Assembly: GCF_017310545.1 (NCBI RefSeq)
Contig: NZ_CP066203.1
Location: 806,001-870,000 of the forward strand
DNA: 64,000 nucleotides
Direction: 5' to 3'
Source: Methylacidimicrobium sp. B4
GTDB taxonomy: Bacteria; Verrucomicrobiota; Verrucomicrobiia; Methylacidiphilales; Methylacidiphilaceae
This document shows, piece by piece, positions 44,052 through 53,338 of the stretch (positions are counted from its first letter, which is position 1; every line of letters begins with the position of its first letter). Made by a program: the position numbers and the translations under genes. The notes under the pieces are model-generated. The model did not search any database and was not told the origin of the DNA. It saw nothing but the letters and a program-made list of their open reading frames with translations.

Positions 44052-44074
44052 CTATCCCTTCGGGTAGTTTTTTT
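44052..44074 (+). promoter_or_regulatory. Hairpin with T-run between the divergent gene and luxI
   Basis: CTATCCC (44052-44058) can pair, with one bulge, with GGGTAG (44062-44067), followed by seven T. It looks like an intrinsic terminator or attenuator lying in the luxI leader, 30 bases before the ATG. It might also be a degenerate lux-box-like palindrome. Confidence 0.3.
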
Positions 44075-44102
44075 GCCCGCTGCTTCTCCCCATGCTCTCG
44101 CC

Positions 44103-44777
44103 ATGCACTACCAACCCGTTCATCTGCATGAGCAAGAGTTCTGCCTTCGAACCCTCACCAGCGAGAAGGAAAGGGAGCTCGCCTACCGGTTTCGCTATCG
44201 CATCTTCTGCCGCGCGCTCCGTTGGATCTCTCCTTCCGCGCCAGGGATCGACCGGGACCAATATGACGATGGGGCGACCCTCCTCGGCGTCTTCGAGGAG
44301 TCGGGACAGCTTCGCGCCATGGTCCGCATCCTGCCGCCGACCCGGCCCTTCATGCTGGAAAGCGATTTTGCCCCGCTGCTCGCTCCCGAGCATTCCGTCC
44401 GCAAGTCTCCTGACACGATCGAGCTGACCCGGTTCGCGGTCGATCCCTCGGCAGCACAAACACGCGGGCTTTCCCAGAGGCTCTCCCTCTTGCTCTACAA
44501 GGGCCTCTACCAGTGGTGCCATCTCAACAAAGTTCGATATGCCTACCTGGTCGTCGAGAAATACTTCTTCCGCGCCATCCAGCTAGCGGGTTTCCCCTGC
44601 CGCCGCATCGGTCCCCTCCACCGGCTGCCCCCGGCGAACGTCGAGTCGCTGGCCGCGATCTTCGATATGGATCATTTTGCCTCGGAGGCGCGCACAAAGC
44701 GCCCGCAATTGGAGGCGTGGTTGAACGCGGCCCCGAATCAGAGCGCGCGGTGCTCCATCGCGAGCGCAATGGCATGA
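44103..44777 (+). CDS. luxI: LuxI-type acyl-homoserine lactone synthase
   Basis: The protein has 224 residues. Family positions are visible: Arg and Phe in AYRFRYRIFCRALRW, the acidic pair in GIDRDQYDDGATLLGVFE, Arg in RAMVRILPPTRPFMLESDF and the ELTRFAV motif (Glu, Arg). It makes an acyl-homoserine lactone from SAM and an acyl-ACP or acyl-CoA; the acyl chain cannot be told. A GNAT of the PEP-CTERM/exosortase-associated type is the alternative. ATG 44103 begins MHYQPVHLHEQEF, the conserved N-terminus. Its 3' end overlaps the luxR gene by 40 bases. Confidence 0.82.
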   Translation: MHYQPVHLHEQEFCLRTLTSEKERELAYRFRYRIFCRALRWISPSAPGIDRDQYDDGATLLGVFEESGQLRAMVRILPPTRPFMLESDFAPLLAPEHSVRKSPDTIELTRFAVDPSAAQTRGLSQRLSLLLYKGLYQWCHLNKVRYAYLVVEKYFFRAIQLAGFPCRRIGPLHRLPPANVESLAAIFDMDHFASEARTKRPQLEAWLNAAPNQSARCSIASAMA

Positions 44778-45757
44778 GAACGGTTGGAGGCCTGCAGCTT
44801 GGCCAGGATGTTCTTCACATGGAACTTGACCGTCGCCTCGCTGACGCGAAGGATCCGGCTCACCTCCCAGTTGCTCTTCCCCTCCTTCATCCAGCGCATC
44901 ACCTCGAGCTCCCGGAGCGAGAGCGCATCGATCCGGGCCGGGTTGGCGGGAATCCCGCTCACCCGAATGATCGCCCCATTGAGATGGGGGATGAGATGCT
45001 GGAATACGGAGCGGTGACGGATCTCGCTTTCGAGCTCCCTTCCCGACACCGAAAAAAGCGTTGCTTGGCAAGACTTCGCATCACGAATACCGCAGGTCAA
45101 GCCATACGCCATTCCAAAGTCCTTCGCTTCGCGGGTGAACGCACTAGCTTGCCTGCTCTGAGCCTCCCGGAGCACCGGAGACCAAGCTACCATTTGGAAG
45201 GTTGCCGCATACCTCTGAACAATGGGATCGAGCCTCACATACCCATTGCAAAAGTATCGGCGCAGCCACTCCTCGGGATAGTCATGCACGGCGCTCGTCG
45301 CCAATCGCGCCTCTTGGCGAGCCGGATCAAAATAGCTAGCTACCGCGAGGATGCTCGTCGCGGGAATGAGCTTGGCGACGCGGGCGAGAAGCTCCGGAAA
45401 TTCAGCGGGATCCCGAAGGCAGGCCAACGCATAGTCGAGTTCGAGCAGCTCCCCCAGCTCCTTCTTGGTCAAGAGCAGCTCCAAGGACCGGCCCGAGCGC
45501 CGCACCGGAGAAGTCGCCGCTCGCCGCAAGGCTCCGACATCTCGCCCCATGCCCGGAACCCGCAACCGCGAGGATGGGATCGTCCATCGCTCGCCCTGAT
45601 GCGCAAAGGGAGCCTCCGGCGTGGATCCCCCATGGGCGGCCGGGAGAGAAACGTCCTGGGACTCTTGCAAGACGCCCTGCAGCCGAACTGTGCCTCCCTG
45701 ACCCGGCTCCTGCGGGGTGGGGGAGGGCATGGCAACTCGATTTTCCGGCCTTTCCAT
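44738..45757 (-). CDS. luxR: LuxR-type quorum-sensing regulator
   Basis: The protein has 339 residues. The autoinducer-binding domain shows EEWLRRYFCNGYVRLDPIV (Trp, Tyr and Asp contacts) and FGMAYGLTCGIRD. The GerE helix-turn-helix is LSLRELEVMRWMKEGKSNWEVSRILRVSEATVKFHVKNIL, in pieces. An unusual ~90-residue N-terminal extension is predicted from ATG 45757, which has GGGGGGAG upstream; a start at 45550 would remove most of it. It is convergent with luxI, sharing 40 bases of antisense overlap, an uncommon arrangement. It probably responds to the LuxI product. Confidence 0.85.
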   Translation of the reverse strand: MERPENRVAMPSPTPQEPGQGGTVRLQGVLQESQDVSLPAAHGGSTPEAPFAHQGERWTIPSSRLRVPGMGRDVGALRRAATSPVRRSGRSLELLLTKKELGELLELDYALACLRDPAEFPELLARVAKLIPATSILAVASYFDPARQEARLATSAVHDYPEEWLRRYFCNGYVRLDPIVQRYAATFQMVAWSPVLREAQSRQASAFTREAKDFGMAYGLTCGIRDAKSCQATLFSVSGRELESEIRHRSVFQHLIPHLNGAIIRVSGIPANPARIDALSLRELEVMRWMKEGKSNWEVSRILRVSEATVKFHVKNILAKLQASNRSHAIALAMEHRAL

Positions 45758-49102: not shown

Positions 49103-49690
49103 ATGGATCGCATAACCACTCTTTCTGCGAATCGTCCTTCTCCAGCCCCCTCCGGAGATCCCGCGACCACGGCTCGATACGATACGGGAGGCTCCTGCGG
49201 ACCCCTCTCCCGGCAAGCGGCCACGCCGACGGGACACATCCTCCCGCTCATCCTTGCAAGATCGACCTGGGTCCGCCTCCTCCACCTAGGTCCCCGGAAG
49301 CTGGCAGCCCTCGCTCTCGCCTATCCCTCTCTTTGGACGGTCCGCATCGGGCTCCGTCGGCTGCCGTTCTCCCGCTTCCGAAGCCTTCTCGCCCGGGTTT
49401 CTCCAGCGGGCCTTCTCCCTCCCCTTCCCCTCTGCTGGGCCATCGAAGCTCTCTCCCGGCGCCTCCCCTGGTCGAGCTGCCTCATTCAGGCGGCGGCGGG
49501 TCACCTCCTCCTCGCCCTCTCCGGTACCCCGAGCCAGCTCGTCATCGGAGTCCGCCAACACGGAGCGGAGCTTGAGGCGCATGCCTGGCTCGAAAGCGGC
49601 GGACGCGTGATTCTCGATCCGATGCCGCAGGGGCGGTTCCAAAAGATCGACAGGATCGGTTCTGCGCACCCTCCCGAGACGCTCACGTAG
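49103..49690 (+). CDS. Lasso peptide B2-type transglutaminase-like leader protease
   Basis: The protein has 195 residues. The lasso B2 family is a Cys protease that removes the leader. The C-terminal half carries the triad pattern: Cys in RRLPWSSCLIQAAAGHLL, then PSQLVIGVRQHGAELEAHAWLE (His) and ILDPMP (Asp). The N-terminal half is helical and moderately hydrophobic (LARSTWVRLLHLGPRKLAAL). It is encoded opposite to the other cluster genes and converges on the cyclase gene, so it has its own promoter. The start is uncertain, as no ribosome binding site is seen. Confidence 0.75.
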   Translation: MDRITTLSANRPSPAPSGDPATTARYDTGGSCGPLSRQAATPTGHILPLILARSTWVRLLHLGPRKLAALALAYPSLWTVRIGLRRLPFSRFRSLLARVSPAGLLPPLPLCWAIEALSRRLPWSSCLIQAAAGHLLLALSGTPSQLVIGVRQHGAELEAHAWLESGGRVILDPMPQGRFQKIDRIGSAHPPETLT

Positions 49691-51716: not shown

Positions 51717-52007
51717 CTACCGCGTGGCCCCGACCCGTCGCACCATGCGCCGTTCCAGCAACTCTTGGAGCAGAGCCTCGGCATCCGCCGAGCAGCGGTC
51801 CTCCTCCACCTCAAACTCCCCGACCAGCGCCGTTACCAGCGCCTCGAGGGAGATCGGCTCGGCCAGCAGCTCCCAAACCCGGGTCCCCACGCCATCAAGC
51901 TGGTAGTAGATTCCCTCCTCCGTATGGAGGATCACCACCGACTTCTCGACCATGATCGAGACCGCTTCGCTAGCTCTTTCAACGCGATCGCCCTGAGCAA
52001 AGCTCAC
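51717..52007 (-). CDS. PqqD-like RiPP recognition element (lasso B1)
   Basis: A 96-residue protein of the PqqD fold: ERASEAVSIMVEKSVVILHT then GIYYQLDGVGTRVWELLAEP and a helical C-terminus with EALLQELLERRMVRRV. It binds the precursor leader and delivers it to the B2 protease and cyclase. No ATG fits the full fold. GTG 52007, with AAGAGG 7 bases upstream, is the best start; TTG 52037 would add ten residues. It lies between the precursor and cyclase genes. Confidence 0.8.
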   Translation of the reverse strand: MSFAQGDRVERASEAVSIMVEKSVVILHTEEGIYYQLDGVGTRVWELLAEPISLEALVTALVGEFEVEEDRCSADAEALLQELLERRMVRRVGATR

Positions 52008-52058: not shown

Positions 52059-52244
52059 TTAGCCAAGGACAGTAGCCGTCGAGACGATGCTTCCTGTCAG
52101 AAGCGTATCGGTGAGCAAGACGCCGCTATTCTTTGTGAGCTCTTCGACCGAGCCATGGACAATCAGCTTTGGCGCCTCGTAGGGCTTCCGGCGTTTCTCC
52201 CCTGCCTTTTGATTGCGTTCAGGCATTCCGTTTTCGTTCTTCAT
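52059..52244 (-). CDS. Lasso peptide precursor
   Basis: A 61-residue precursor. The leader contains PYEAPKLIVHGSVEELTK: Tyr22, Pro25, Leu27, Gly31 and Leu36-Thr37 match the YxxPxLxxxGxxxxLT lasso leader signature. With Thr at position -2, the core is Asn39-Gly61 (NSGVLLTDTLLTGSIVSTAT plus VLG), 23 residues. Asp46 is core position 8, right for an 8-residue macrolactam ring. Asn as residue 1 is unusual; cleavage one residue later (Ser1, Asp7) is the alternative. AGGAGG 7 bases before ATG 52244 decides the start over an upstream ATG at 52277. Confidence 0.85.
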   Translation of the reverse strand: MKNENGMPERNQKAGEKRRKPYEAPKLIVHGSVEELTKNSGVLLTDTLLTGSIVSTATVLG

Positions 52245-52267
52245 CTCGTTTCCTCCTGTTTGTCGGT

Positions 52268-53338
52268 TCATCCACATCCTCTAGCGCAGCCAGACAGGCT
52301 CGCGCCGGCTGCTCTCTCTTGCCCTGCCCCCATCCGTGCCGCTTCCGCTCGCACGCCCATGGGCTTGCCAGCCCTTCTCGCCAACAAATGGGCCGCCAGC
52401 ACTAGGCGGATCTGCGGATCGGCAAGCCTCTTCCGGATTTTGGCCACAAACGACGGATCGTTGGTGAGCCGCAGGCAAACTTGACAGATGCCCGCAAATC
52501 GTTGCGACGAGAGCTCGTCGTTTTCCTCAATCAGCTTCCCCATCGCCCGGGGGCCGATGGCGTAGATCGCGTGAAGCACCGGATCGGAAGCTCCCCGAGC
52601 GAGGATCCGATCGAGCGGCTCCTCGAGCGCATTCCCCAGGATGAGGGGAGAGCCAGGCTCGGCCTCGAGCGAGGGACCGCAGCAGGCATAGACCGTGCCA
52701 TCCCAACGGACGACCGGCAGGACGACCGAAGGGCAGAATCCCGCCGGGGGCCCGCTCGACCAGTCGAAGCTTTCCACGGGCAGGCTGGCGGCCCGTCCAA
52801 CCGGCACGACCTCCATCGCCTCGTGCGCTTGGGCAGAAGCAGCAAACTCCGCGTAATATGCCGCGCGCGCCTCCGGAGAGTCGCTGGCCCGGAAGGCGGA
52901 ACGGATGATCGGACGAAGCCCCAGGTTCGCCGCCGTTTGGGCCACTCGGACCGCAGCCTCCCTCCGCAAGAAGACCTCATGGAAGGGATCCCAGCTGATC
53001 ACCAGCTGCCGGAGGCCCGCCTCCGCCAGCTCCGAGAGCACAGGCTCGATCCGCTCCTCGTCTTTGGCCCAACCGCAGCCGGTCACAAGCGAAACAGTCA
53101 AGCCGAGTTTGCTTGCCAGGGCGACCAGGCTCCGGATCTCCTCCGGGTAGAGCAGCGGCTCCCCGCCGGTGAAGCAGAGCTGCGTGCTGACCCGTGCCGC
53201 CTCCCCGATGTAGCGCGCCGCATCCTTGGGATCCATCTTTCCCTCGTCCCCGGGAGAAGAGCGGGTGACGCAGTGGCCACACGCCAGAGGGCAGCGCCGC
53301 GTGTACATGAGGCCCACGGTCTTCCAGGCAAAGCTCAT
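52268..53338 (-). CDS. Radical SAM/SPASM protein in the lasso cluster
   Basis: The protein has 356 residues. The radical SAM cluster motif is CPLACGHC near residue 16, followed by QLCFTGGEPLLYP. C-terminal FCPSVVLPVVRWDGTVYACC and FAGICQVCLRL form a SPASM-like auxiliary cluster region. Such enzymes make thioether, epimer or C-C modifications on RiPPs, or relay a peptide maturation step. Presence in a lasso operon, directly before the precursor gene, suggests tailoring of the peptide. It overlaps the kinase stop (ATGA). ATG 53338 begins MSFAWKTVGLMYTRRC, a natural start. Confidence 0.82.
   Translation of the reverse strand: MSFAWKTVGLMYTRRCPLACGHCVTRSSPGDEGKMDPKDAARYIGEAARVSTQLCFTGGEPLLYPEEIRSLVALASKLGLTVSLVTGCGWAKDEERIEPVLSELAEAGLRQLVISWDPFHEVFLRREAAVRVAQTAANLGLRPIIRSAFRASDSPEARAAYYAEFAASAQAHEAMEVVPVGRAASLPVESFDWSSGPPAGFCPSVVLPVVRWDGTVYACCGPSLEAEPGSPLILGNALEEPLDRILARGASDPVLHAIYAIGPRAMGKLIEENDELSSQRFAGICQVCLRLTNDPSFVAKIRKRLADPQIRLVLAAHLLARRAGKPMGVRAEAARMGAGQERAAGASLSGCARGCG

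Follow-up and report, generated by a model that had tools for sequence, protein, structure and literature searches.

A lasso peptide cluster in Methylacidimicrobium sp. B4 encodes a radical SAM enzyme homologous to the peptide epimerase EpeE/YydG. We assign a probability of about 0.58 to its product being a class II lasso peptide with an eight-residue ring, phosphorylated and epimerised at the precursor stage. The radical SAM gene is the unusual part of the cluster and was left unmentioned by the initial annotation, which had attributed thread locking to "perhaps the added enzymes"; this gene offers an answer. The cluster lies in a 64,000-nucleotide stretch of genomic DNA, here called the window, and its features are collected in Table 1.

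Table 1. Cluster features, in positions of the window, with the evidence for each
Feature	Position	Strand	Evidence
NTP_transf_5 nucleotidyltransferase-like protein, 399 aa	47699..48898	-	Pfam E 1.9e-29; conserved in four Methylacidimicrobium clusters
B2, leader peptidase	49103..49690	+	lasso_biosyn_B2 (NF033537) 82.7 bits, cut-off 33; start uncertain
C, lasso macrolactam cyclase, 634 aa	49807..51711	-	lass_lactam_cya E 6e-136, under curated cut-off; SGGIDSS loop intact
B1, PqqD-like RRE protein	51717..52007	-	PqqD E 3.7e-18, top NCBIfam models lasso PqqD; GTG start inferred, frame open to 52037
Precursor gene A, 61 aa	52059..52244	-	ORF; lasso_leader_L3 above curated cut-off; homologues in three congeners; conserved ribosome site
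Predicted core peptide NSGVLLTDTLLTGSIVSTATVLG, residues 39-61	52062..52130	-	Spacing rules
Asp46 codon (core Asp8), predicted ring acceptor	52107..52109	-	Invariant in four congeners and the L050 homologue
Predicted leader peptide, residues 1-38	52131..52244	-	Thr-2 and Tyr-17/Pro-14/Leu-12 spacing (rule: PMC10368454)
YEAPKL motif (YxxPxL), residues 22-27, predicted B1/RRE-binding site	52164..52181	-	Sequence
AGGAGG ribosome-binding site of the precursor gene	52252..52257	-	Identical in four species
Radical SAM enzyme, 356 aa, homologue of EpeE/YydG	52268..53338	-	TIGR04078, PDB profile match, AlphaFold model; between kinase and precursor
HPr-kinase-like protein, 321 aa	53335..54300	-	Hpr_kinase_C E 2.1e-6, below gathering score; His-Lys-Asp-Asp motif

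The precursor has the sequence MKNENGMPERNQKAGEKRRKPYEAPKLIVHGSVEELTKNSGVLLTDTLLTGSIVSTATVLG, its last residue being Gly61. Its ORF goes beyond chance because the lasso_leader_L3 model scores 26.7 bits over residues 22-38, where the curated cut-off is 19, homologues occupy the equivalent location in three congeneric genomes, and purifying selection acts on its conserved block (dN/dS about 0.15-0.3; core 0.25-0.6). The ribosome-binding site lies 7 nt upstream of the start codon and is kept in four species. Within the leader, Y22, P25 and L27 of the motif are invariant across four congeners. Counted back from Asn39, the sequence has Lys at -1, Thr at -2, Leu at -12, Pro at -14 and Tyr at -17, and Tyr-17/Pro-14/Leu-12 with Thr-2 is the published spacing for RRE-recognised leaders (PMC10368454). 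These two independent rules agree in placing Asn39 at core position 1 and Asp46 at position 8, and the predicted core reads NSGVLLTD(8)TLLTGSIVSTATVLG.

Several features proposed in the initial annotation are borne out by this comparison. Both spacing rules place the core start at Asn1, and Asp8, the presumed acceptor for an eight-residue ring, is invariant in five cores (those of four Methylacidimicrobium genomes and of the methylococcal homologue L050), in which G3, L10, G13 and S14 are identical as well. There is indeed no C-terminal Ser, the relatives ending in G, SP or EP, and no bulky plug, the core being devoid of Trp, Phe and Tyr and also of Cys. Asn1, described as rare, is uncommon: run over 388 Pseudomonadota genomes, the same leader model yielded 11 loci whose precursors were readable with the same spacing and with Asp at 8 or 9, and these start with Gly (10) or Ala (1), several of them being closely related so that the distinct cores number 8. 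The three congeners have Ala, Ser and Ala at this position, and the Methylococcaceae homologue L050 has Gly. A sequencing error behind Asn1 was considered and is unlikely; at least two bases would have to change to turn the Asn codon into one for Ala, the residue found in the closest relative. Asn1 is odd, yet by the spacing it appears to occupy the genuine core position 1. In two sister genomes, second lasso clusters adjoin (L005:282-467 and L006:3637-3840), with cores KSGSVPD and KSDLVPD predicted to pair Lys1 with Asp7; they have a kinase, lack a C-terminal Ser and are without a radical SAM gene of the EpeE-like kind. Their apparent use of Lys1/Asp7 means that the cyclases of the genus may tolerate unusual first residues.

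The minus strand carries, in order, the HPr-like kinase, radical SAM enzyme, precursor, B1 and cyclase genes, with the radical SAM start overlapping the kinase stop, and the same gene set and order recur in three further Methylacidimicrobium genomes (four in total). B2 sits on the strand opposite to the remaining cluster genes in all four. The cyclase matches PF00733 (E 2.3e-38), and its best match is NF033535, although below that model's own cut-off. Present together are a B2 leader peptidase, an asparagine-synthetase-like cyclase with an intact ATP loop, a leader with an RRE motif and Thr-2, and an acidic residue within core positions 7-9, namely Asp8. The lasso assignment draws on leader and B2 scores above their cut-offs, on B1 and the cyclase being best matched by lasso models, on the agreement of both spacing rules, on synteny across four genomes and on the Gly1/Asp8 core of L050. 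Gene content, leader motif, Asp8, catalytic residues and conservation can be read directly from the DNA. Elsewhere in the window, an autoinducer-synthase-like gene (44073-44777, plus strand; PF00765, E 4.7e-17) is convergent and overlapping with a gene for an autoinducer-binding LuxR-type regulator (44738-45757, minus strand; PF03472, E 1.9e-21); this pair was not found in the examined stretches of the sister clusters.

The best NCBIfam match of the radical SAM enzyme is TIGR04078 (YydG/EpeE), at E 1.6e-21 over nearly the full length, with a score of 77 bits that is far under the 300 bits set as equivalog cut-off. When a nine-sequence profile was run against the PDB, EpeE came first (E 3e-29) and the next family followed at 3e-6; identity to EpeE is 18-20%. 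Compared with EpeE, the AlphaFold model (pLDDT 87.3, pTM 0.85) gives Z 28.5-29.3 across some 300 residues, as against 20.6 for the next family, and in the best superposition (Z 29.3, 303 residues, rmsd 3.2) the overall predicted fold matches, including the C-terminal part. Across 25 homologues there is no variation at Cys16, 20 and 23 (CxxxCxxC), 219, 285 or 288, and almost none at Cys202 and Cys220. In the PDB alignment Cys220 coincides with Cys223 of EpeE, an enzyme that epimerises internal Val36 and Ile44 and in which this cysteine is proposed to donate the hydrogen (PMC8326336); the numbering offset of 25 was fixed by the D210A mutant residue, which is chain position 235 in that alignment. 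Asp210 itself, mutated by the EpeE crystallographers, is replaced at the aligned place by Leu207, which counts against strict EpeE membership. Sactipeptide, cyclophane and streptide-like chemistries were rejected, as cores without Cys or aromatic residues exclude thioether and aromatic cross-links. Where an alpha-carbon radical is paired with a cysteine donor, epimerisation is the most natural chemistry left. Support for an epimerase comes from EpeE being the nearest solved relative by both sequence and fold, from the retained cysteines and the Cys223 equivalent, from the composition of the core and from co-occurrence with the precursor; the low TIGR04078 score, the low identity and the lost Asp210 speak against it.

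The kinase carries the His-Lys-Asp-Asp catalytic motif (LLHAG, GAGKT and CDD) that is essential in lasso kinases (PMC9266682); its HPr kinase match, which stays below the Pfam gathering score, counts against the kinase reading. The C-terminal Ser found in substrates of paeninodin-type kinases is absent here, where the core ends in Gly. The earlier statement that known lasso kinases phosphorylate such a Ser has been superseded: the Ser3 that BsfK phosphorylates, with B1 assisting, belongs to the ring region (PMC10368454), and LppK targets Ser3 of a linear RiPP (PMC13381572). Given internal phosphorylation by BsfK, a core that lacks a C-terminal Ser poses no contradiction. Ser14, the sole Ser/Thr identical in all five Asp8 cores, is the best candidate for the target. 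PsmN, annotated as a nucleotidyltransferase, is needed for hexose addition to phospho-Ser in pseudomycoidin (PMC9266682), and by analogy a sugar-adding role is plausible for the NTP_transf_5 protein.

Close relatives of the radical SAM enzyme form one group, supported in a 25-member tree (bootstrap 96, SH-aLRT 91). They were found in 12 genomes, comprising four of Methylacidimicrobium, five of Methylacidiphilum and three from the order of Methylococcus capsulatus, one of the three being placed near that species by its order and by this gene; all 12 carriers belong to methanotroph groups. A search at E 1e-25 through 388 sampled Verrucomicrobiota and 398 sampled Pseudomonadota genomes found no further members of this clade, and in viruses and plasmids the radical SAM protein had only distant matches (22-35% identity). 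The other EpeE-like loci examined (Streptomyces, Kitasatospora, archaea and others) had no lasso cyclase, B2 or precursor nearby; the scan of genome contigs used two exact peptide patterns, and other lasso/radical SAM pairs could have escaped it. Within Methylacidimicrobium, the distribution of the radical SAM gene follows that of the precursor without exception: four genomes have both, and three congeners, one of them only 83% complete, have neither.

Pairing with lasso genes is seen in Methylacidimicrobium and Methylococcales, while the Methylacidiphilum relatives are without cyclase and B2. The methylococcal clusters comprise cyclase, precursor, kinase, radical SAM enzyme, B1, an ABC transporter and a nucleotidyltransferase-like protein, the last of which was located by tblastn in L050 and L113 and by eye in L051. 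The core in L050, GTGLVLLD(8)ILIQGSLTVSVTTLG, has Gly at 1 and Asp at 8. Two Methylococcus-type genomes instead have a core of the form G-x-L-x-L-S-V-x-T-P-L-T-A-T-L-x-D, with no acidic residue at 7-9; in these precursors (L113:6640-6843 and L051:7937-8101) a lasso-type leader is followed by Asp17 as the only acidic candidate. Either the lasso fold has been lost there or the ring is very large. The cyclase loop is GGGLDSS in L113, where the gene is intact, whereas the gene in L051 is frameshifted. In the latter genome, M. capsulatus Texas, cyclase (L051:6074-7904) and kinase (L051:8345-8975) are both frameshifted and are either pseudogenes or assembly errors. Because the Methylococcus cluster persists with Asp8 lost and an altered cyclase loop, not every member can be taken to form a lasso.

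In the five Methylacidiphilum genomes, kinase, radical SAM and PqqD genes lie beside a 63-residue peptide, together with HlyD-type export genes; cyclase and B2 were found nowhere in these five genomes. From its position, conservation and tail we infer that this ORF encodes the substrate: the tail is rich in V, I, T and A and resembles that of Methylacidimicrobium, ending for example in LLSVTALATIGL. The same loci (L021:6932-8024; also L019, L020, L022 and L023) encode a further one or two small proteins, in which the motif LESR-x-LFAA precedes a series of repeats resembling 'NLPLDLSL', and have export genes of the HlyD/TolC type. That Methylacidiphilum keeps HprK, radical SAM enzyme and PqqD without cyclase or B2 suggests a radical SAM step that does not depend on a lasso fold. 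The hydrophobic, beta-branched C-terminal tail common to all these loci is the likely target of the enzyme.

For the Methylacidimicrobium product we infer the following route, which extends to the occurrence and site of epimerisation, the site of phosphorylation, the order of steps and the threading. The PqqD-like B1 protein would bind the YEAPKL motif of the leader. With the precursor still linear, the radical SAM enzyme would take the alpha-hydrogen from at least one beta-branched or hydrophobic residue of the tail (SIVSTATVLG), and Cys220 would return a hydrogen, leaving D-residues in the tail. The HPr-like kinase would phosphorylate an internal Ser or Thr, with Ser14 as the leading candidate, and the NTP_transf_5 protein may decorate the phosphate. 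B2 would then cleave after Lys38, and C would link the Asn1 amine to Asp8, closing the eight-residue ring around the tail. The plug that the bulk-free tail is missing may be supplied by D-residues, by the phosphate or an attached sugar, or by these in combination.

The ring itself could be drawn differently if the leader were cut one residue later, giving Ser1 and the seven-residue ring that the initial annotation had raised as an alternative. Acceptors (Asp or Glu) at 7-9 are known in lasso peptides, so Asp7 rings are possible (PMC10368454), and the second clusters of the sister species have Asp7; this cut, however, violates both the Thr-2 and the Tyr-17 spacing and would put S, S, A and V at position 1 within the genus, of which Val is implausible, whereas the place of Asn39 is taken by A, S, A and G in the relatives. 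We regard it as highly improbable. The cluster might also be an ordinary phosphorylated lasso cluster in which the radical SAM enzyme makes some other modification, such as an alpha-carbon ether or carbon-carbon link to a Thr or Ser side chain. A score under the EpeE equivalog cut-off, the loss of Asp210 and a Thr/Ser-rich tail would all fit, but EpeE is by far the nearest solved protein in fold and sequence, and the proposed donor cysteine, superfluous to a cross-linking enzyme, is kept; we think this unlikely, while taking it seriously.

Quite unlikely, in our estimate, is a product that is no lasso at all but a linear epimerised phosphopeptide, the cyclase being vestigial or forming an unthreaded ring. 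Both the Methylacidiphilum loci and the Methylococcus precursors lacking Asp8 point that way, and linear phosphorylated RiPPs made with a kinase, an RRE and an NTP transferase exist (PMC13381572). Against it, the Methylacidimicrobium clusters have retained their genes, with an intact cyclase loop, B2 above its cut-off and Asp8 invariant in four species. The phosphorylated, epimerised lasso peptide remains our preferred reading.

The locus resembles phosphorylated class II lasso systems (paeninodin, pseudomycoidin and Bsf) in its B1/B2/C set, HPr-type His-Lys-Asp-Asp kinase, PsmN-like nucleotidyltransferase, YxxPxL leader and Cys-free core, but differs in Asn1, in the additional EpeE-like radical SAM enzyme and in the missing C-terminal Ser. 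With the epipeptide system EpeX/EpeE of Bacillus subtilis (formerly YydF/YydG) it shares the radical SAM fold, the two-cluster cysteine set and the Cys223 equivalent; epipeptides, however, are linear and have no lasso cyclase, and the window enzyme is only distantly similar, below the family cut-off and without Asp210. Lasso precursors are epimerised, as predicted for this one, in the MslH (MS-271) and DUF6895 systems. MslH epimerises the C-terminal Trp by metal-dependent acid/base chemistry. The DUF6895 epimerase is reported, in the title of a reference of PMC13352647, for lasso peptides with D-residues, and going by the families named, neither it nor MslH is a radical SAM enzyme, unlike that of the window. 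Linear polyphosphorylated peptides (LPP) resemble the Methylacidiphilum relatives in having a kinase, a discrete RRE and an NTP transferase without lasso genes; radical SAM enzymes are unmentioned in PMC13381572, and the window locus differs in having cyclase and B2. A lasso cluster with an EpeE-like radical SAM enzyme looks like a combination not described before in the literature searched, in which no account of one was found, although subscription journals were mostly outside that search and this is weak evidence of absence.

We give even odds to the broader proposal of a lasso peptide with D-residues installed by a radical SAM enzyme, and of a kinase/radical SAM/RRE module for hydrophobic, beta-branched tails that methanotrophs of two phyla would use with and without lasso cyclisation. 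A lasso epimerised by radical chemistry would, as predicted here, add a third enzyme type for lasso D-residues after MslH and DUF6895. Radical SAM epimerisation is effectively one-way. Because such chemistry reaches internal Val and Ile, as EpeE does at Val36 and Ile44, D-residues could sit inside the threaded tail, and stereochemistry, instead of a bulky plug, becomes testable as a lasso lock. The natural series of clusters with Asp8, with Asp8 lost and with no cyclase lets one ask when the tailoring module needs the knot.
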